Positions 411-9,299 of a DNA stretch of 64,000 nt are shown one piece after another. Under the pieces are notes generated by a model that was not told the origin of the DNA, ran no database searches, and saw nothing but the letters and a program-made list of their open reading frames with translations. Source of the DNA: Martelella sp. AD-3 (GTDB lineage: Bacteria; Pseudomonadota; Alphaproteobacteria; Rhizobiales; Rhizobiaceae); assembly GCF_001578105.1 (NCBI RefSeq), contig NZ_CP014275.1:4303001-4367000 (forward strand). The letters run 5' to 3'. How positions within the stretch are numbered: position 1 is the first letter of the stretch; the number at the start of each line of letters is the position of its first letter. The position numbers and the translations under genes were made by a program.

Positions 411-1418
411 ATGGCGAAACGACCGACGATCATCGATGTGGCCCGCCATGCAGGGCTTTCCAAGTCGACGGTTTCGCTCGTGCTGCAGAATTCGCCGCTG
501 GTGAAGCAGGAGACCCGCAAGCGCGTCGAACAATCGATGCAGGCGCTGAACTATGTCTATAACCGCGCGGCGGCAAACCTGCGCGGCGCGGAGGCCGGGC
601 TGATCGGGCTCGTCATCAACGATCTCAGAAACCCCTTCTTCGCCGAATTCGCGGCGAGCGCCCAGATGGCCTTTGCCGAACACGGCTTTGCCACCGTGAT
701 CGCCAACACCGACGAGGACACCGCGATACAGGATCAAGTGATCGCCTCCATGGTGGAGCACGGCGTTTCGGCGCTGATCATGTCGCCGGCCTATGGTGAT
801 GACGGCGCGGTGTTCGAGCGGATCGCACGCGCCGGCATCCCGGCATTGCAGGTGCTGCGCATGGCCAATGCCGACACCACCCGCTTTCCCTTCGCCTCGC
901 TCGATTACGAGGCCGGAAGCCTTGCCGCCGCCCGCCATCTCATTGAAACCGGCGCGAGGAACATCGCCTTCGTCGGCGGCCTGCCGGACAGGGCCGTCAC
1001 CCACGAGCGCATGGCCGGCTACCGCGCGGTGATCGCCGAGACCGGCGCCGAACCCTTTACCCTGCTCGGACGCCCGACGCGCGCCTTCGGCCGCGATGCG
1101 GCGCTGAAGCTGTCGCAGGATCGCCGCAGACTCGACGCCGTGCTCTGCTTCAACGACCTTGTGGCGCTCGGCATGCTGGCGGGCTTTGCTGAAACCGGCG
1201 TCATTGTCGGTCGCGACATCGCCCTGGTCGGCTTTGACGACATCGAGGAATGCGCGCTGGCCTATCCCAAGCTCTCCTCCGTCCACTGCGACATCGGCGC
1301 CTTTGGCCGCAGCGCCGCCGCCACCATGCTGACATGGCTCGAGACCGGCGAGCGCCCGCCGGAGAAAGCGTTCTCGCCGGTAACGATGACCGTCAGGGAT
1401 TCCAGCGGTGCGCGTTAG
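411..1418 (+). CDS. LacI-family transcriptional regulator
   Basis: A 335-residue repressor-type regulator. Residues about 5-25 (TIIDVARHAGLSKSTVSLVL) form the LacI helix-turn-helix, residues about 45-60 the hinge helix (NRAAANLRG), and the remainder a periplasmic-binding-protein-like effector domain with the usual IGLVINDLRNPFF opening and the VGFDDIEEC segment near the end. The reading frame is open further upstream into repeat R1, but the ATG at 411 is chosen because it starts immediately before the DNA-binding domain and has GGAAAGG upstream. The GMC oxidoreductase just upstream on the same strand is its most likely regulated partner. The effector is probably a sugar or polyol, but the sequence does not identify it. 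Confidence 0.88.
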   Translation: MAKRPTIIDVARHAGLSKSTVSLVLQNSPLVKQETRKRVEQSMQALNYVYNRAAANLRGAEAGLIGLVINDLRNPFFAEFAASAQMAFAEHGFATVIANTDEDTAIQDQVIASMVEHGVSALIMSPAYGDDGAVFERIARAGIPALQVLRMANADTTRFPFASLDYEAGSLAAARHLIETGARNIAFVGGLPDRAVTHERMAGYRAVIAETGAEPFTLLGRPTRAFGRDAALKLSQDRRRLDAVLCFNDLVALGMLAGFAETGVIVGRDIALVGFDDIEECALAYPKLSSVHCDIGAFGRSAAATMLTWLETGERPPEKAFSPVTMTVRDSSGAR

Positions 1419-1529
1419 TCCTCCGGCGCCGGAGCGGCAGACCGAAATTTCCCCGTCGAAAATCGATCCCACCTGACGATCTGCAAGGCGTGAAGGCGCG
1501 AATCGGTTCATCGATGGTCTTGGCCGAAA

Positions 1530-1576
1530 CCACCATATCTTGATGCGGTATTGATAAGACATACCATATACGGTGC
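1530..1576. promoter_or_regulatory. Tandem NrdR-box-like sites upstream of nrdD
   Basis: Two sites share the core CCATAT, one at 1533-1538 inside CCATATCTTGATG and one at 1564-1569 inside CCATATACGGTG. Against the NrdR consensus acaCwAtATaTwGtgt they match about 10 and 11 of 16 positions. Their centres are exactly 31 bp apart, three helical turns, which is the usual geometry of paired NrdR boxes. Both lie just before the chosen nrdD start at 1608. NrdR represses ribonucleotide reductase operons in many bacteria. The assignment is inference from motif and spacing; no nrdR gene is in the window. Confidence 0.5.
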
Positions 1577-1607
1577 GGCCATGATCTCGAACCGAGGGGA
1601 AGCCATC

Positions 1608-3665
1608 ATGCCGGAAGCGCCTGCCGCGTTGGAAAAACTGTCCGCTGGAGCAGAGGAAAGACTGCCATCCTTCGTCGTCAAACGAAACGGCGCGCGGGTC
1701 GCGTTTTCGGCGGAAAAGATCGAGCGCGCGATCGAAAAGGCGGGCGAGGCGACCGGCGCATTCGGACCCGGCGAGGCGCGCAGGCTCACAGACCAGGTGG
1801 TCAAGGTCATCAGCCACAGCGCGCTTGACGATGCGATCGAAATCGAGCGCATTCAGGACATCGTCGAGCAGGCGCTGATTTCGGCAAACTTCTTCGAGAC
1901 CGCCCGCGCCTATATCGTCTACCGCGAAAAACACGCCAAGCTGCGTGAAACCGGCAAGGTCGCCGTCGATGTGATTTCGTCGATCGACGAATATCTCGAC
2001 CGCTCCGACTGGCGCGTCAATGCCAATGCCAATCAGGGCTATTCGCTGGGCGGGCTGATCCTCAACGTCTCCGGCAAGGTCGTCGCCAATTACTGGCTCT
2101 CCCATGTCTATGATCCGCAGATCGGCGAGGCCCACCGCGCCGGCGACCTGCATATCCACGATCTCGACATGCTGTCGGGCTATTGCGCCGGCTGGTCGCT
2201 TCGCACCCTGATCACCGAAGGGCTGAACGGCGTGCCGGGCAAGGTCGAGGCCGATCCGCCGAAACACATGTCGTCGGCCGTCGGCCAGATCGTCAATTTC
2301 CTCGGCACGCTGCAGAACGAATGGGCCGGCGCCCAGGCGTTTTCCTCCTTCGACACCTATATGGCCCCCTTCATCCGCAAGGACGGCCTCTCCTATGAAG
2401 ACGTGCTGCAGTCGATCCAGGAGCTGATCTACAATCTGAACGTCCCCTCGCGCTGGGGCACGCAGACGCCCTTTACCAACCTCACCTTCGACTGGGTCTG
2501 CCCGGACGACCTGAAGGAACAGCGCCCGATCATCGGCGGTGAGGAAATGCCGTTCGCCTATGGCGAGCTGCAGGTCGAGATGGACATGATCAACCGCGCC
2601 TATATGGAGATCATGACCAAGGGCGATGCCAAGGGCCGGGTGTTCACCTTCCCGATCCCGACCTACAACATCACGCCCGATTTCCCCTGGGAAAGCGAAA
2701 ACGCCACACGGCTCTTCGAGATGACGGCCAAATACGGCCTGCCCTATTTCCAGAATTTCCTGAACTCCGACCTTTCGCCCAACATGGTGCGCTCCATGTG
2801 TTGCCGGCTGCAGCTTGACCTGACGGAGCTTCTGAAGCGCGGCAACGGGCTTTTCGGCTCGGCCGAACAGACCGGCTCGCTCGGCGTCGTCACCATCAAC
2901 TGCGCCCGCCTCGGCTTTTCCCACAAGGGCGACGAGGCCGGACTTCTGGCCCGCCTCGACGAATTGCTCGAGCTTGGCCGCGACAGCCTCGAAATCAAGC
3001 GCAAGGTGATCCAGCGGCTGATCGACGAGGGACTGTTCCCCTATACCAAGCGCTATCTCGGCACGCTGCGCAATCATTTCTCCACGCTCGGTGTCAACGG
3101 CGTCAACGAGATGATCCGCAATTTCACCGGCGACCGCGAGGATATCACCACCGAATGGGGCCATGATTTCGCACTGACAGTTCTCGATCATGTGCGCGAA
3201 AAGATCGTCTCCTTCCAGGAGGAGACCGGCCATCTCTACAATCTCGAAGCCACGCCGGCGGAAGGCACGGCCCACCGCTTCGCCCGCGAGGATGCCAAAC
3301 GCTTCCCCGGCATCATCCAGGCGGGCACGCCGGAAAACGCCTATTATACCAATTCGAGCCAGCTGCCCGTCGGCTTCACCGAAGATCCTTTCGAGGCTCT
3401 CTCCCGCCAGGAGGCGCTGCAGAAGAAATATACCGGCGGCACGGTGCTGCACCTCTACATGGGCAGCCGCATCTCCTCCGGCGAGGCCTGCAAGGCGCTG
3501 GTCAAGCGCGCGCTGACAAATTTCCGCCTGCCCTACATCACCGTCACCCCGACATTCTCCATCTGCCCGACCCATGGCTATCTGGAGGGCGAGCACCAGT
3601 TCTGCCCGCAATGCGATGCCGAACGTCTGTCGAAAAAACGCGCCACGCTGATGGCCGCCGAATGA
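1608..3665 (+). CDS. nrdD: Class III anaerobic ribonucleoside-triphosphate reductase, catalytic body without its glycyl-radical tail
   Basis: A 685-residue enzyme body that reduces ribonucleoside triphosphates without oxygen. An N-terminal ATP-cone (about residues 20-110, PSFVVKRNGARVAFSAEKIE) is followed by the ten-stranded barrel. The MVRSMCCRL segment carries the probable thiyl-radical cysteine, and GSLGVVTINCARLG is a conserved barrel strand. The C-terminus has the metal-binding knot as C-P-T-H then C-P-Q-C, with one cysteine replaced by His. The protein stops 14 residues later. The glycyl-radical motif that should follow is not in this protein; it is encoded by the next gene at 3677. ATG 1608 is preferred because GAGGGGA lies seven bases upstream. 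First gene of an operon with the radical peptide and nrdG. Confidence 0.92.
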   Translation: MPEAPAALEKLSAGAEERLPSFVVKRNGARVAFSAEKIERAIEKAGEATGAFGPGEARRLTDQVVKVISHSALDDAIEIERIQDIVEQALISANFFETARAYIVYREKHAKLRETGKVAVDVISSIDEYLDRSDWRVNANANQGYSLGGLILNVSGKVVANYWLSHVYDPQIGEAHRAGDLHIHDLDMLSGYCAGWSLRTLITEGLNGVPGKVEADPPKHMSSAVGQIVNFLGTLQNEWAGAQAFSSFDTYMAPFIRKDGLSYEDVLQSIQELIYNLNVPSRWGTQTPFTNLTFDWVCPDDLKEQRPIIGGEEMPFAYGELQVEMDMINRAYMEIMTKGDAKGRVFTFPIPTYNITPDFPWESENATRLFEMTAKYGLPYFQNFLNSDLSPNMVRSMCCRLQLDLTELLKRGNGLFGSAEQTGSLGVVTINCARLGFSHKGDEAGLLARLDELLELGRDSLEIKRKVIQRLIDEGLFPYTKRYLGTLRNHFSTLGVNGVNEMIRNFTGDREDITTEWGHDFALTVLDHVREKIVSFQEETGHLYNLEATPAEGTAHRFAREDAKRFPGIIQAGTPENAYYTNSSQLPVGFTEDPFEALSRQEALQKKYTGGTVLHLYMGSRISSGEACKALVKRALTNFRLPYITVTPTFSICPTHGYLEGEHQFCPQCDAERLSKKRATLMAAE

Positions 3666-3676
3666 AAGGAAAAACC

Positions 3677-3865
3677 ATGTCCGTGATTGAGAAAGACATC
3701 GTCGCCGAAACCGAGATCACGCTTTGCGATGACGAACGCCAACCCTGCGAGATCTGGACGCGGGTGATGGGCTATCACCGCCCGGTCTCCTCCTTCAACC
3801 GCGGCAAGAAAGGCGAATTCGCCGAGCGCCGCTATTTCCGGGAAATGCGCGGTGACCGGGCGTAA
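3677..3865 (+). CDS. Detached glycyl-radical domain of class III ribonucleotide reductase
   Basis: A 62-residue protein containing RQPCEIWTRVMGYHRPVSSF and then NRGKKGEF. The R-V-x-G-Y core is the glycyl-radical loop of NrdD enzymes, with Gly32 as the expected radical site. It begins 11 bases after the nrdD stop, in a different frame, and has its own AAGGA ribosome site, so it is a separate gene and not a simple frameshift. Together with nrdD it accounts for a complete class III reductase. The natural model is a two-part enzyme in which this peptide docks into the NrdD barrel and is activated by NrdG, much as GrcA/YfiD serves as a separate glycyl-radical part for pyruvate formate-lyase. I recall similar small NrdD-like proteins in other proteobacteria but cannot check this here. 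Confidence 0.85.
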   Translation: MSVIEKDIVAETEITLCDDERQPCEIWTRVMGYHRPVSSFNRGKKGEFAERRYFREMRGDRA

Positions 3866-4688
3866 CGAGGCGCAAGCGGAGAGGCACCGTTCAATCTCCC
3901 CCCTTGAGGGGGAGATGTCGCGGCAGCGACAGAGGGGGGTATGCAGAATATCCGCTGACGCTGAACCTGTCGAAATGGCTCACCCCCCTCTGCCCCGTTC
4001 GGGGCATCTCCCCCTCAAGTGGGGAGATCAAAAAGAGGCAGGCGGCGGTGCACATGACCTGCGCATCGGCGGCTTCGAGCCCTTTTCCCTTTGCGACTGG
4101 CCGGGCAAGATCGTGGCCACGCTGTTCCTGCAGGGGTGCCCGTGGCGGTGCCCCTATTGCCACAATCCCGCGCTTATCGATGCCTCGGCCGAAACCGGAT
4201 ACCGCTTTGCCGACATTCTCGAATTTCTCGAAACACGGCGCGGGCTGCTGGATGGCGTCGTCTTTTCCGGCGGCGAGCCGACGCTGCAGAAAGCACTCGT
4301 TCCGGCCATGACGACCGTGCGCGAAATGGGCTTCTGCGTCGGCTTGCACTCTGCAGGCCCTTATCCCGGGCGGTTGAAACATGCCCTGCCCCATGCCGAC
4401 TGGATCGGCCTCGACATCAAGGCTTCGCGCCGCGACTATGACCGGATGACCGACGCGCCGAAAAGCGGCGAACGCGCGTTCCGGAGCCTGGAGCACGTTC
4501 TTTCAAGCGGAATCGACTACGAGATCCGCACCACCGTGCATCCCGAACTCCTCACGGCCGCCGACTTGGCCGAGCTCGAGGCCGATCTTTCCCGCTTCGG
4601 CATCGACGCCCACAAGATACAGACCTTCCGGATGGACGGCGTCGACCGGGATCGGCTCGCCAGCGCGCTCGCCAAACGCCGCAGCTGA
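3852..4688 (+). CDS. nrdG: Anaerobic ribonucleotide reductase activating protein (radical SAM), with repeat-derived N-terminus
   Basis: Radical-SAM activase that installs the glycyl radical. The core begins near residue 69 (LRIGGFEPFSLCDWPGK), followed by GCPWRCPYCHNP with the C-x3-C-x2-C iron-sulfur motif, and later GGEPTLQ, which binds SAM. The core of about 210 residues is full length for NrdG. The frame upstream of the core is open through repeat R2 (3894-4028), and every in-frame ATG or GTG lies in or before that repeat: GTG 3852, ATG 3915 and ATG 3975. No ATG or GTG lies between the repeat and the conserved core. GTG 3852 overlaps the end of the radical-peptide gene by 14 bases, favouring coupled translation, but either ATG is possible. 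The N-terminal 43 to 68 residues are therefore repeat-encoded whichever start is used. Confidence 0.85.
   Translation: MTGRNEAQAERHRSISPLEGEMSRQRQRGVCRISADAEPVEMAHPPLPRSGHLPLKWGDQKEAGGGAHDLRIGGFEPFSLCDWPGKIVATLFLQGCPWRCPYCHNPALIDASAETGYRFADILEFLETRRGLLDGVVFSGGEPTLQKALVPAMTTVREMGFCVGLHSAGPYPGRLKHALPHADWIGLDIKASRRDYDRMTDAPKSGERAFRSLEHVLSSGIDYEIRTTVHPELLTAADLAELEADLSRFGIDAHKIQTFRMDGVDRDRLASALAKRRS
3894..4028. repeat. Palindromic repeat, copy R2, overlapping the nrdG 5' end
   Basis: A 135-bp copy of the element at 214-346 in the same orientation, with end palindromes ATCTCCCCCCTTGAGGGGGA and CCCCTCAAGTGGGGAGAT and inner hairpins GTCGC-GGCA-GCGAC and GCCCC-GTTC-GGGGC. Unlike the other copies it has no stop codon in the nrdG frame, so it is read as part of that gene. 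Confidence 0.9.
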
Positions 4689-4858
4689 GAAACCCGGGTC
4701 GCCCATACCCCGAGCCGAAATTCGGCATCGGCGCATTTTCGCCTTGTTTGGAAACAATACTGACAATCGAAAGAACAAGTCTTGAACCCAATAAAGAGCA
4801 TTTCCATATAGCTTCTGTCGGCAGATTTTATGCCGTAACAAAGCGAGGAAAACTTGAG

Positions 4859-5290
4859 ATGAACGAGACCGCATTGCTGCGTCCGGCGTGGACGCCACTT
4901 ACGATTGCCCTGATGGTGATCGGCTTTGTCGTCTTCTGGCCGCTGGGCCTGGTCATGCTTGCATACATCATCTGGGGCGACCGGCTGAACATGACGAAGG
5001 GCGAATGGAAACGCTCTGCCGAACGGGCTTTCGGATCCTGCAGGCGCAACATGCGCAATGCGGACACGACCATGCATTCGACCGGCAATGCCGCTTTCGA
5101 TGAATGGCGCCGCAGCGAGATGGACCGGATCGAGGCCGAGCGCCGCAAGCTTGACGAGATGCGCGCCGAATTCGACCGCTATACCGATGAGCTGCGCAGG
5201 GCGCGCGACCGGGAGGAATTCGACCGGTTCATGCGCGAGCGTGGTGGAAATTTCAATGCCTCCGGGTCGAACCCTGCGCCCGAAGCATAA
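4859..5290 (+). CDS. DUF2852-type membrane protein with coiled-coil tail
   Basis: A 143-residue protein. Residues about 13-36 form one hydrophobic membrane segment (TIALMVIGFVVFWPLGLVML), followed by the YIIWGDRLN turn. A long charged helix with many Arg and Glu residues follows from about residue 75 to 130 (RRSEMDRIEAERRKLDEMRA), a probable coiled coil. This layout fits the DUF2852 family found in Rhizobiales, whose function is unknown. ATG 4859 is chosen because GAGGA lies nine bases before it and the protein then begins at the usual short pre-membrane segment; the frame is open further upstream with no support. The 170 bp before it hold no gene that I can support. Confidence 0.75.
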   Translation: MNETALLRPAWTPLTIALMVIGFVVFWPLGLVMLAYIIWGDRLNMTKGEWKRSAERAFGSCRRNMRNADTTMHSTGNAAFDEWRRSEMDRIEAERRKLDEMRAEFDRYTDELRRARDREEFDRFMRERGGNFNASGSNPAPEA

Positions 5291-5409
5291 GAGAAAATGA
5301 CCTCCGATATCTTCCGGCATCGCCCTTTCCCCCAGGGTGGTGCCGTTTTTTTGTGCCCGCTTCTGGCGCGCCGGACGGAAAACCGCTACGCGTCAGCCGA
5401 TGATCCTCA

Positions 5410-6162
5410 ATGACGAGCCCTGACGTGGAAAAACGCGCCAAACCGACGACGATCGATCTCGGCGGCAGGGTGCTGCCGCTCAACCTGAAGACCAATGCGC
5501 GCGCCCGGCGGATGACGCTGAAGATCGAGCCCGGCGGCCATGCCGTCAGCCTCACGGTGCCGCCCGGTCTGGCGCGCCACGAGGTCGACGGTTTCCTGCG
5601 CCGCCACCATGACTGGCTGGTCGAACGGATGGCGCGGTTCGATGGCCGCAGCGCCGATATTACCGATGGCGGTGCGGTTTCGATCTTCGGCTTCGCCCAC
5701 ACAATCCGCCACAGCGGCAATCTGCGGGGGCTGACGACCGTTCGCGACGAGGGCGAGGGCAAGGTGCTGCTTGTTTCCGGCCCGGCCGAGAGCATCGGCC
5801 GCCGGGTCGCGGATTACCTGAAGAAGGAAGCGCGTCGCGAGATCACCGGGCGCGTGAAGGTGCATGCGGCAGCCAGCGGCAAATCCTATGCCTCGATTTC
5901 CTTCAAGGACACGCGTTCGCGCTGGGGGTCGTGCTCGTCTGCCGGCAATCTCAATTTCTCCTGGCGCATCGCCATGGCGCCCATGTTCGTCGTCGACTAT
6001 CTCGCCGCCCATGAAGTGGCCCATCTTTCCGAGATGAACCATGGACCGCGTTTCTGGGCGCTGTGCGAAAGGCTCTGCCCGCGAACGCCCGAAGCGCGCC
6101 AATGGCTGAAAAACGAAGGGTCCTTCCTGCATGCGGTGCGTTTCGAGGCGCCCTTTGCCTGA
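5410..6162 (+). CDS. YgjP/DUF45-type zinc metallopeptidase
   Basis: A 250-residue protein of the YgjP-like family in the M48/SprT-like metallopeptidase group. The C-terminal half carries SRWGSCSSAGNLNFSWRIA, the family-specific loop, and then HEVAHLSEMNHGPRFW, giving His201-Glu202-x-x-His205 plus His211 as zinc ligands. The N-terminal 100 residues (ARRMTLKIEPGGHAVSLTVP) form the beta-rich domain typical of the family. There is no signal peptide, so it should act in the cytoplasm. The physiological substrate of this family is not known to me. It stands alone, about 120 bp after the DUF2852 gene and 43 bp before trpF, on the same strand. Confidence 0.82.
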   Translation: MTSPDVEKRAKPTTIDLGGRVLPLNLKTNARARRMTLKIEPGGHAVSLTVPPGLARHEVDGFLRRHHDWLVERMARFDGRSADITDGGAVSIFGFAHTIRHSGNLRGLTTVRDEGEGKVLLVSGPAESIGRRVADYLKKEARREITGRVKVHAAASGKSYASISFKDTRSRWGSCSSAGNLNFSWRIAMAPMFVVDYLAAHEVAHLSEMNHGPRFWALCERLCPRTPEARQWLKNEGSFLHAVRFEAPFA

Positions 6163-6205
6163 TCAAGCCTTCGCAGGCTCCCCTTTGTTGTGATAGAAAA
6201 GCATC

Positions 6206-6868
6206 ATGAAAAGACCGGATATCAAGATCTGCGGTATAAGCACCAGGGAAACGCTCGACCACGTGATTGCCCGCGGCGCCACCCATGTGGGCTTCATCTT
6301 CTTCGAAAAGAGCCCGCGTCATGTGGAAATCGATGTTGCCGCCGGCCTGATCGAACACGTGCGCGGCCGGGCGAAGACGGTGGCCGTGAGTGTGAATGCC
6401 GACAACGAACTGCTTGAGGAAATCGTCTTCGGCGCTCGGCCCGACATGCTGCAGCTGCACGGCAAGGAGAGCGTCGACCGGGTGGTGACCGTCAAGGCAC
6501 TGTACGGGCTGCCGGTGATCAAGGCGTTTTCAATCCGCACGCCGGAAGACCTTGCCTTTGCGCGCGACTACGAAGATGTCGCCGACCGCATTCTCTTCGA
6601 TGCCAAGCCGCCGGAAAACGCCGTCCTTCCCGGCGGCAACGGCATTGCCTTTGATTGGCGCTTGCTTGCCGGCTATCAGGCGACTATCCCTTGGTTTCTG
6701 TCCGGAGGACTGAACGCGGAGAATGTGGGCACGGCGCTCACCGAGATCCACGCGCCGGGTCTTGACGTATCATCCGGTGTGGAAAGCGCGCCCGGCATAA
6801 AGGATCCGGCCCGGATCGATGCCTTTTTTGATGCCGTTGACAAGGCGCGGATGCGCCAGACGGCCTGA
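6206..6868 (+). CDS. trpF: Phosphoribosylanthranilate isomerase
   Basis: A 220-residue TIM-barrel enzyme that performs the Amadori rearrangement of phosphoribosylanthranilate to CdRP, the third step of tryptophan synthesis. KICGI places the catalytic base at Cys9, LFDAKPP supplies the catalytic Asp, and [11 protein letters not shown] and [14 protein letters not shown] form the phosphate-binding end. The length is normal for the family. Its stop overlaps the trpB start (ATGA at 6868), so the two are translationally coupled. A short AGCCT-TCGC-AGGCT hairpin lies 27 bp upstream. No leader peptide rich in Trp codons was seen in the 43-bp upstream gap, so attenuation is not supported here. Confidence 0.96.
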
Positions 6869-8100
6869 TGGAGACTGACGTGAACGAGACGCCAAAACCA
6901 AACTCCTTCAAATCCGGCCCCGACGAGAGCGGCCTGTTCGGCATTTTCGGCGGCCGTTTCGTCGCCGAGACCCTGATGCCGCTGATCCTCGACCTGCAGG
7001 CCGAATGGGAAAAGGCCAAGACCGACCCGGACTTCAAGGCGGAGTTGACCTCGCTCGGCAAGCATTATACCGGTCGTCCGAGCCCGCTCTATCACGCCGA
7101 ACGCCTGAGCGAACATCTCGGCGGCGCGAAGATCTATTTCAAGCGCGAGGAGCTGAACCACACCGGTTCGCACAAGATCAACAACTGTCTCGGCCAGATC
7201 CTTCTGGCCAAGCGCATGGGCAAGACGCGCATCATTGCCGAAACCGGCGCCGGCCAGCACGGCGTGGCCTCCGCCACCGTTGCCGCGCGTTTCGGCCTGC
7301 CCTGCGTCGTCTATATGGGCGCGACCGACGTCGAGCGTCAGGCTCCCAACGTCTTCCGCATGAAGCTTCTCGGCGCCGAGGTGAAGCCGGTGACCGCCGG
7401 TCACGGCACGCTGAAGGATGCGATGAACGAGGCGCTGCGCGACTGGGTCACAAACGTCGAAGACACCTATTACCTCATCGGCACGGCCGCGGGTCCGCAT
7501 CCCTACCCGGAAATGGTGCGTGATTTCCAGGCGGTGATCGGCCAGGAAGCGCGCGCGCAGATCATGGAAGCCGAAGGGCGGTTGCCCGATCTGGTGATCG
7601 CGGCCGTCGGCGGCGGCTCCAACGCCATCGGCATCTTCCACCCCTTCCTCGACGATCCGGACGTGAAGATCGTCGGCGTCGAGGCGGGCGGTCGCGGGCT
7701 CGACGGCGAGGAACACTGCGCCTCGCTCACGGCCGGCGCGCCGGGCGTGCTGCACGGAAACCGCACCTATCTGCTGCAGGATGGCGACGGCCAGATCAAG
7801 GAAGGCCATTCGGTCTCCGCCGGGCTCGACTATCCGGGCATCGGACCGGAGCACTCCTGGCTCAACGATATCGGCCGGGTGGACTATGTGCCGATCCTCG
7901 ACGACGAGGCGCTGGAAGCCTTCCAGCTGATGACCCGACTTGAGGGCATCATTCCCGCGCTCGAAGCCAGCCACGCGATTGCCGAGATCGTCAAGCGCGC
8001 GCCGAAAATGGGCAAGGACGAGATCATCCTCGCCAATCTTTCCGGTCGCGGCGACAAGGATGTTCACACGGTCGGCAAGATCCTCGGTATGGAGATGTAA
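6868..8100 (+). CDS. trpB: Tryptophan synthase beta subunit
   Basis: A 410-residue PLP enzyme that condenses indole with serine. The Schiff-base lysine is Lys103 in [12 protein letters not shown], preceded by the hallmark [17 protein letters not shown] is the phosphate-binding loop for PLP, and the protein ends with [12 protein letters not shown], diagnostic of TrpB1. It acts as an alpha2-beta2 complex with TrpA. The ATG overlaps the trpF stop. A small gene of unknown function lies between trpB and trpA, so the two synthase subunits are not directly adjacent as they usually are. Confidence 0.98.
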
Positions 8101-8105
8101 GGTCC

Positions 8106-8390
8106 ATGACGACAGGTTCGCGCGCGGACGCCATTGAGGAGATGTCGGAACTGGCGGAGGCCCTGTTCGACATTATCGAGGAGGAGAATGCGGACGTGCC
8201 GGATATCCGCCACGCCGTGGTGGAAGCGCTGGCCCACCAGAACCTCTACAATATCGAGATGGCGGCCGCGCTGTCAGCGCTTTCAGAAGGTCGACGGCCC
8301 GACGCCGAGCTGGACAGCCTCGTCTTGAACATGAAGGCGGTGCACAAATCGCTGGTCAAGGCGATTACGGCCTGGAACGAGGCGGAGTAG
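8106..8390 (+). CDS. Small hypothetical protein between trpB and trpA
   Basis: A 94-residue acidic protein that starts five bases after the trpB stop and ends 69 bases before trpA. It is predicted almost wholly helical (IEEMSELAEALFDIIEEENAD, then HAVVEALAHQNLYNIEMAAALS) with no signal peptide, membrane segment or cysteine. I do not recognise the family. Codon use matches its neighbours (GC-rich third positions), and the close spacing makes it very likely translated with the trp genes. It might be a structural or regulatory partner of tryptophan synthase, but that is speculation from position alone. Confidence 0.7.
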   Translation: MTTGSRADAIEEMSELAEALFDIIEEENADVPDIRHAVVEALAHQNLYNIEMAAALSALSEGRRPDAELDSLVLNMKAVHKSLVKAITAWNEAE

Positions 8391-8459
8391 CCGTTTCCGC
8401 AAGGCCGGACGCGCCGCACGCCGGATATTTCGCATCGAGGATGCCACGGAGTTTAGAGT

Positions 8460-9299
8460 ATGACCGAACGCATGGAAAAACGCTTTGCAGCCCTGAAGGC
8501 CGAGGGCCGGCCGGCGCTGATCACCTATTTCATGGGCGGCGATCCCGATTTCGATACCTCGCTTGAGATCATGAAGGCGTTGCCGAAGGCCGGCGCCGAC
8601 GTGATCGAGCTCGGAATGCCTTTCTCCGACCCGATGGCCGATGGCCCGGCGATCCAGATGGCGGGCTTGCGCGCGCTGAAGGGCGGGCAGACGCTGGAAA
8701 AGACGCTGGAACTGGCACGTCAATTCCGCAGGCAAGATGCCGACACGCCGATCGTGATGATGGGATACTACAACCCGATTTACATCTACGGCGTCGAGCG
8801 TTTCGTGGAAGCCGCGCTCGAAGCCGGGATCGACGGGTTGATCATCGTCGACCTGCCGCCGGAAATGGACAATGAGCTGTGCATTCCGGCTCTCGCAAAG
8901 GGCCTCAACTTCATCCGCCTCGCCACGCCGACGACCGATGAGAAGCGCCTGCCGACGGTTCTGCGGAACACTTCGGGCTTCGTCTACTACGTGTCGATGA
9001 ACGGCATTACCGGCTCGGCGCTGCCCGATCCCTCGCGCGTTGGCGCCGCCGTCTCACGCATCAAGGCGCATACCGATCTTCCCGTCTGCGTCGGCTTCGG
9101 CGTGAAGACGGCCGAACATGCCCGCCTGATCGGGGCTGCCGCCGACGGCGTCGTGGTCGGCACGGCCGTCGTCAACCAGATCGCCGGCACGCTGGACGCC
9201 AACGGCAAGGGCAGCAGGGATACTGTGGATGCCGTTGCCACTTTCGTGCGCGGGCTTTCGAGCGGCGTCCGCGACGCCCGCCTTGCGGCGGCGGAGTAA
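8460..9299 (+). CDS. trpA: Tryptophan synthase alpha subunit
   Basis: A 279-residue TIM barrel that cleaves indole-3-glycerol phosphate to indole and glyceraldehyde 3-phosphate and passes the indole to TrpB. The catalytic acids are Glu50 in [12 protein letters not shown] and Asp61 in [22 protein letters not shown] and [11 protein letters not shown] are the conserved phosphate-binding loops. The length is typical. GGAG lies upstream of the ATG in the 69-bp gap after the small gene. accD follows 42 bp later, the usual rhizobial order trpFBA-accD-folC. Confidence 0.97.

Follow-up and report, generated by a model that had tools for sequence, protein, structure and literature searches.

Which polypeptide provides the radical glycine of a class III ribonucleotide reductase (RNR) when the catalytic chain itself lacks it? 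This question is raised by a locus of Martelella sp. AD-3, lying in a stretch of 64,000 nucleotides (contig NZ_CP014275.1, positions 4,303,001 to 4,367,000 of the forward strand; hereafter the window), where nrdD ends without a glycyl-radical loop and is followed by a gene for a 62-residue peptide and by the activase gene nrdG. We conclude with high confidence that the locus encodes a class III RNR made of two polypeptides. Separate genes, conservation, selection and frame independence were all observed, and a structural model predicts that the tethered peptide takes the canonical place of the loop.

The initial annotation, made from the sequence alone, had proposed that nrdD stops after its metal knot without the R-V-x-G-Y loop, and that the loop is found in the next gene, in another frame, with its own AAGGA ribosome site and ahead of nrdG. 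Both statements proved correct, coordinates included (Table 1). The match of NrdD to the Pfam family NRDD (PF13597) ends at position 530 of 562, and the chain itself terminates 16 residues past the last cysteine of the knot. The small gene, shifted to the -1 frame with respect to nrdD, starts with an ATG 11 bases past the stop of that gene, and its product matches NRDD positions 526–562 (E 4.8e-9, over the cut-off), so that the two genes (positions 2–530 and 526–562) jointly cover one NrdD. PF13597 is the sole Pfam match of the peptide up to E 1. The NrdG adjoining the split pair matches TIGR02495 with E 6.9e-58, over the cut-off. A PF13597 scan of the Martelella sp. AD-3 genome gave two matches, the NrdD core and the peptide, and no full-length NrdD with its own glycyl loop; since the genome holds no complete enzyme to be repaired, the peptide would here be an obligate subunit first. 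The annotation had also pointed to a cysteine of the knot changed to histidine. The residue is indeed present, but C-x-x-H and C-x-x-C are identical in 73/73 split and fused rows of our alignment A3, and the change was dropped as a clue to the split because fused relatives share it.

The suspicion that similar small NrdD-like genes exist elsewhere was confirmed by a protein-database search, which returned 2853 short relatives of 34–108 aa, some of them possibly fragments. Among 61 related genomes the peptide is present in 11, representing 2 of 49 genera, with no match in three genomes of the genus and 47 others; near Martelella the system is therefore patchy. All 11 loci, which come from this genome, from 9 of the 12 further genomes in the genus and from a single genome of another family, have the same layout. 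For the small gene in six loci of the genus, 14 of 15 pairs gave dN/dS values of 0 to 0.22, the differences being mostly silent; the remaining pair gave 0.82, a value resting on four changes. A scan of genome contigs with the peptide found at least 578 relatives, 80 of which were examined. Since the patterns used for genome and viral contigs were derived from the loop itself, loop conservation among the matches is partly by construction.

Taken over loci L001–L106, which are not independent (several come from one genus and some pairs from one genome), nrdD adjoins a separate peptide gene in 97 of 106. NrdD is fused in L022, L025 and L026; no nrdD lies beside the peptide in L014, L033, L045 and L058; L086 is a solo peptide whose nrdD match is a 16-residue chance match. 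In L024 the loop reads RSMGF instead of RVMGY. The named hosts include members of the Hyphomicrobiales, Rhodospirillales, Rhodobacterales, Caulobacterales, Burkholderiales and Nitrosomonadales, with some Gammaproteobacteria. The split layout is thus not peculiar to this genome and extends across a large clade, mostly of proteobacteria. When 398 genomes of the phylum were sampled, NrdD matches exceeded the cut-off in 56, and in 13 of those the enzyme is split. In 46 genomes chosen for having the peptide, none had an NrdD unbroken from its start through the loop; in G536 no NrdD core was found and in G523 nrdD is broken.

The relation between the two genes varies from locus to locus. The peptide gene is in the same frame as nrdD in 30 of the 97 loci, in the +1 frame in 27 and in the +2 frame in 40, while the gap from the nrdD stop to the peptide ATG (96 loci) has a median of 29 bases and ranges from -4 to 415. 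At L225, in genome G370, a single contig carries both, with the peptide gene about 9.5 kb upstream of the core. A Shine-Dalgarno match of at least 5 bases precedes the chosen ATG in 92 of 96 loci, as against 72 of 1134 in-frame ATGs inside nrdD, a contrast that is somewhat inflated because the peptide starts were picked with a preference for an ATG with a ribosome site and the background ones were not. The split class III enzyme with its radical glycine on a separate subunit, as the initial annotation read it, is borne out by the separate genes, their recurrence in 97 of 106 loci and the three frames.

Being separate is accompanied by a change in the peptide. The closest fused relatives pass directly from knot to loop, in sequences like C-P-x-C-G-x-x-T-x-V-W-T-R-V-M-G-Y, while the stand-alone peptides have, in place of the knot, the conserved lead-in L-x-D-x-E-R-Q-P-C-E-I/V-W. 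The motif ERxxCE(I/V)W was found in 91/98 host loci, 74/80 viral peptides and 120/120 top stand-alone proteins, and in 0/120 fused relatives, the latter being the best 120 of 8000 scored with the fused NrdD of L227 as query. This distribution marks ER..CE as a feature belonging to the separate state, and the element may be part of a docking surface. In a tree of 43 of the 89 split cores, 16 fused NrdD and one viral core, the split and viral cores share one branch (98/93) and the near fused clade forms a separate one. The bootstrap of this tree was not settled and the program warned of long branches; its simplest reading would be a single splitting event.

Modelling of both proteins, which the initial annotation had suggested, is consistent with a two-chain enzyme. 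In a model built on 73 alignment rows with the peptide tethered to the core, the peptide glycine is predicted at the position occupied by the glycine of T4 and Thermotoga NrdD. In the VIA-align list the class III rows 8p2c, 8p28, 8p27, 8p2d and 4con stop short of the peptide, at model residue 641 or 642, and the S. thermophilus rows stand at rmsd 10.9–15.8. A sequence search of the PDB with the peptide found no relative, only one chance match (E 0.82).

Peptides of this kind also occur alone in viral contigs. Scanning IMG/VR with the peptide alignment gave 127 relatives, of which 80 were examined. For 79 of these 80, the adjoining DNA examined showed no NrdD relative on the strand of the peptide; the glycine and its flanking residues are kept in all 80, though the scan patterns favour that. 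Of 40 of these records searched whole with NRDD, 39 contained only the last 30-odd family positions; the sole exception, G457, has core and peptide as separate frames together with radical-SAM genes. The viral contig of L110 (IMGVR_UViG_2889436542, 1136–9170) has its own split NrdD, with an 808-aa core, a separate peptide and two radical-SAM genes, and its core branches with the divergent split NrdD of L024 (91/90). A control query, for which the C-terminal 60 residues of another fused NrdD (L190) were taken, returned 65 short proteins. Many of them are on short contigs and likely fragments, but several on long contigs are stand-alone genes of a second sequence type (VYSRVVGYFRPVKQW). The viral scan with second-type peptides gave 191 relatives, and the 80 examined comprised 66 short frames without a core, 11 matches within long NrdD frames and 3 without the motif searched. 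No core was found in any of the 48 second-family viral contigs searched whole, 47 of which had a peptide match over the cut-off. With both families pooled, 87 of 88 viral contigs searched whole carry a stand-alone glycyl peptide without an NrdD core.

The viral peptides counted are distinct in 62 of 78 cases in the first set and 53 of 66 in the second, near copies being common. Comparison of the neighbours with PHROGs revealed phage genes beside the peptide in six of seven viral loci tested: tail fibre, endolysin and integrase at L131, portal and head protease at L126, a tail assembly chaperone at L163, tail and head genes at L276, and replication genes at L234 and L301. At L110 the four neighbours tested belong to radical-SAM, NrdD or unknown families. 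Eight of 144 viral peptides (L126, L165, L168, L169, L178, L242, L276 and L301, with L165 and L169 being the same peptide) have at least three extra cysteines ahead of the loop, which may give them a separate metal site. The viral contigs IMGVR_UViG_3300025600_000014 and 3300025750_000007 both carry a pair of differing solo glycyl peptides (L235/L279 and L236/L285). Among named phages, two of 50,697 records gave weak matches, one annotated there as anaerobic RNR and the other without annotation.

Host genomes likewise contain solo copies. An extra peptide gene away from nrdD was found in 4 of the 46 genomes, namely G502, G508, G534 and G537. The G534 copy has a tail-fibre assembly gene on one side and an integrase on the other, and that of G502 is close to genes resembling RecE and RecT and to an RNR large subunit; the host NrdD is split in both, and both loci look like prophages. 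In G508 (Magnetospirillum fulvum; L045, 4674–8287) the solo peptide gene immediately precedes class I nrdA and nrdB and stands apart from the split nrdD of that genome. The neighbours in G537 are not phage-like: at L221 (6739–6924) the gene after the peptide encodes a radical-SAM protein that has a B12-binding match. An FAD oxidase and a methyltransferase are also among the neighbours, and the split nrdD is elsewhere in the genome. An association of this copy with nrdA was considered and rejected on account of these neighbours.

The features of the locus are collected in Table 1. A palindromic element (3894–4028) separates the small gene from the conserved part of nrdG; its 47-base arms are 83% complementary, and the nrdG frame is open throughout it. 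The spacing from the small-gene stop to the nrdG CxxxCxxC is 248–392 bases in the six loci of the genus (L001–L006), compared with 80–98 in five others. Elsewhere in the genome we found one match to a class I/II reductase large subunit (4505047–4506603) and a single PF01228 glycyl radical domain match (2431951–2432271), the latter within a 795-aa frame.

Table 1. Coordinates of the nrdD–peptide–nrdG locus, numbered from the first nucleotide of the window.
Feature	Position	Strand	Basis
nrdD core, class III RNR catalytic chain without the glycyl-radical loop	1608-3665	+	685 aa; Pfam NRDD 2-530/562, ATP-cone, NF006126
ATP-cone of NrdD, residues 22-110	1671-1937	+	PF03477, E 5.9e-25
Cys-Cys of the SMCCR finger-loop motif, expected thiyl-radical cysteine site	2799-2804	+	sequence; invariant in alignments A2 and A3; role as described in PMC9669993
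Metal knot C-x-x-H ... C-x-x-C near the NrdD end	3564-3614	+	sequence
Ribosome-binding site AAGGA of the small gene	3666-3670	+	sequence
Stand-alone glycyl-radical subunit, 62 aa	3677-3865	+	PF13597 positions 526-562; 2853 short homologues
ERQPCE element of the small peptide	3734-3751	+	in stand-alone peptides, in none of the fused NrdD examined
RVMGY loop; radical-site Gly codon 3770-3772	3761-3775	+	sequence; invariant columns in alignment A1 (30 rows)
nrdG, radical-SAM activase; CxxxCxxC from 4137; start putative	3852-4688	+	TIGR02495 NrdG2 from residue 72

How would such an enzyme work? The 76-kDa NrdD chain would contribute the ATP-cone, the barrel, the finger-loop cysteines and the metal knot, and the peptide would dock on it and insert its RVMGY loop into the barrel. 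NrdG would then generate the radical on the peptide glycine, and a thiyl radical would subsequently form at the NrdD finger-loop cysteine; we infer that assembly of the two chains and activation by NrdG take place in the cell. Class III RNR is one of the main suppliers of DNA precursors in anaerobic life. Oxygen is known to destroy enzymes of this class by cutting the chain at the radical glycine (PMC2795772, PMC3019208), so that in the split form, where this residue is on the peptide, only a 7-kDa chain would be lost. A fresh peptide might then restore the oxygen-cut enzyme, and phages, by carrying just the peptide, could maintain the activity of the host reductase. Were the peptide exchangeable and limiting for the enzyme, solo copies in viral contigs and prophages would be expected. 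We lean slightly towards a consumable and exchangeable peptide in hosts with a split NrdD, and less so for the second-family phages. The wider proposal, that stand-alone peptides are radical cartridges by which split hosts cheaply replace oxygen-cut ones, and that phages of two families bring their own, those of the second perhaps for hosts with a fused NrdD, is a tentative one, to which we give a little under an even chance. The parallel with GrcA/YfiD that the initial annotation drew is a likeness in idea, the replaceability of the part being supported only indirectly, by the solo copies in viral contigs and some hosts. The peptide is not a member of that family: GrcA carries PF01228, while the peptide matches PF13597.

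Could the small frame nonetheless be the tail of nrdD, joined to it by programmed -1 frameshifting or stop read-through to yield a fused NrdD? In the window the small frame, in the -1 register, extends back into nrdD without a stop, and there are six consecutive A near the end of nrdD. We regard this explanation as very improbable and rejected it, because the gene occurs in all three frames, the gaps vary as described and the peptide gene of G370 is upstream; moreover, the A-run is interrupted in L004, L005 and L008, the small frame of L005 opens only at the nrdD stop, and two to three stops intervene between nrdD and the peptide in L024, L044, L056, L057 and L095. A frame change beside an A-run is also a classic site of sequencing error, and two assemblies (G521 and G523) have nrdD in several frames. 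However, the chance that an error or a recent break of nrdD into a pseudogene accounts for the layout is negligible in view of its recurrence in 11/11 related loci and 97/106 loci, of the purifying selection on the small gene, and of its conserved start, ribosome site and extra N-terminal element; this candidate was likewise discarded.

If the two chains are real, the peptide may still be bound once and never replaced, the split being a neutral accident of one ancestor. The single tree branch of the sampled split cores is compatible with one fixed event, and a peptide gene beside nrdD in 97/106 loci is what a fixed partner would show; on the other hand, the extra solo copies in 4/46 genomes, two of them prophage-like, and the viral solos of two sequence families speak for exchange, and we consider a division without exchange a real though lesser possibility. 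A role of the peptide, above all in phages, as a regulator or decoy occupying the NrdD active site or NrdG is improbable. Phages are known in general to make small proteins that inhibit a host enzyme, and viral solos, coming without NrdD, could act on host enzymes; but host NrdD cores end before the loop, so that something must supply it, and the glycine with its flanks is invariant in the first viral set, with the reservation made above. Several points weigh against a two-polypeptide enzyme with an exchangeable peptide. In Massilia sp. H-1 (L073, G523) knot and loop are in one open frame, though its nrdD consists of several broken frames. Because folding relied on a read-through tether and on an alignment with fused relatives among its rows, docking was partly given by the input; a first fold, from 18 similar rows, was poor (mean pLDDT 65.6). 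Viral ribosome sites are weaker, reaching at least 5 bases in 46/78 and 34/66 peptides, and no viral record is rated at least 90% complete, so that the contigs may be fragments and a core may lie elsewhere in the virus. Finally, both the enzyme and the exchange are argued from sequences and models.

The same gene layout recurs in a studied organism. Plasmid pHG1 of Cupriavidus necator H16 has the same three genes, with an NrdD of 676 aa (computed mass 76.2 kDa) ending after the knot and a peptide of 66 aa; RefSeq labels both pieces as reductase. The abstract of Siedow et al. 1999 reportedly gives 76.2 kDa for the H16 NrdD. H16 nrdDG is reported to be essential for denitrification, and the C. 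metallidurans genes are listed as Rmet_5137 and Rmet_5139, the gene between being skipped. Given the same layout in H16 and the reported essentiality, it is very likely that a split enzyme is at work there, with no comment on its third gene in the literature consulted. In the open-access literature searched, we found no description of a separate NrdD glycyl subunit or of a phage version; Siedow et al. 1999 or Wei et al. 2014 may mention the split. In H16, nrdDG has already been studied genetically.

The system resembles several known ones without coinciding with any. Jointly, the two polypeptides match class III NrdD (NF006126/PRK08270, TIGR02487), with which they share the ATP-cone, SMCCR, the C-x-x-H..C-x-x-C knot and the adjoining NrdG; in contrast, the chain is divided between knot and radical loop, NrdD has an extra tail and the peptide the extra ER..CE. 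A single chain carries the radical glycine in class III, whereas here it is on a separate peptide, which makes the enzyme a variant rather than an ordinary member of the class. Another reductase usually made as a single chain, the class II NrdJa/NrdJb of Pseudomonas aeruginosa, is also described as two (PMC9669993, PMC4520616), but it is B12-dependent, has no glycyl radical and is divided elsewhere. Phage nrdD and nrdA genes split by an intron, intein or homing endonuclease are likewise RNR genes in pieces, some reported as functional (PMC3653736); those cases are scattered, and several arose via mobile elements, whereas the present split is clade-wide, at the radical loop and with a short gap. 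The survey in PMC9531940 removed RNR sequences shorter than 400 residues, and surveys that drop short sequences miss the radical-carrying part of a split enzyme. Also among the closest known systems are GrcA/YfiD of E. coli and Y06I of phage T4, the latter phage-encoded, which are small stand-alone copies of the glycyl-radical domain of a large enzyme (PMC8683613). The window peptide differs from both in belonging to NRDD and not to Gly_radical (PF01228), in serving another enzyme and in being obligate, since the large chain has no glycyl loop. PMC8683613 names YfiD and Y06I, which both serve pyruvate formate-lyase, as the only validated spare parts and adds that others may exist. With the vulnerable part as a 7-kDa subunit, repair of an RNR becomes directly testable in C. 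necator H16, and the peptides offer a meaning for many tiny viral genes for which no described function was found. If the cartridge proposal holds, the peptide would be an auxiliary gene of only some 40–120 codons and the first spare-part system for a glycyl radical enzyme besides pyruvate formate-lyase.
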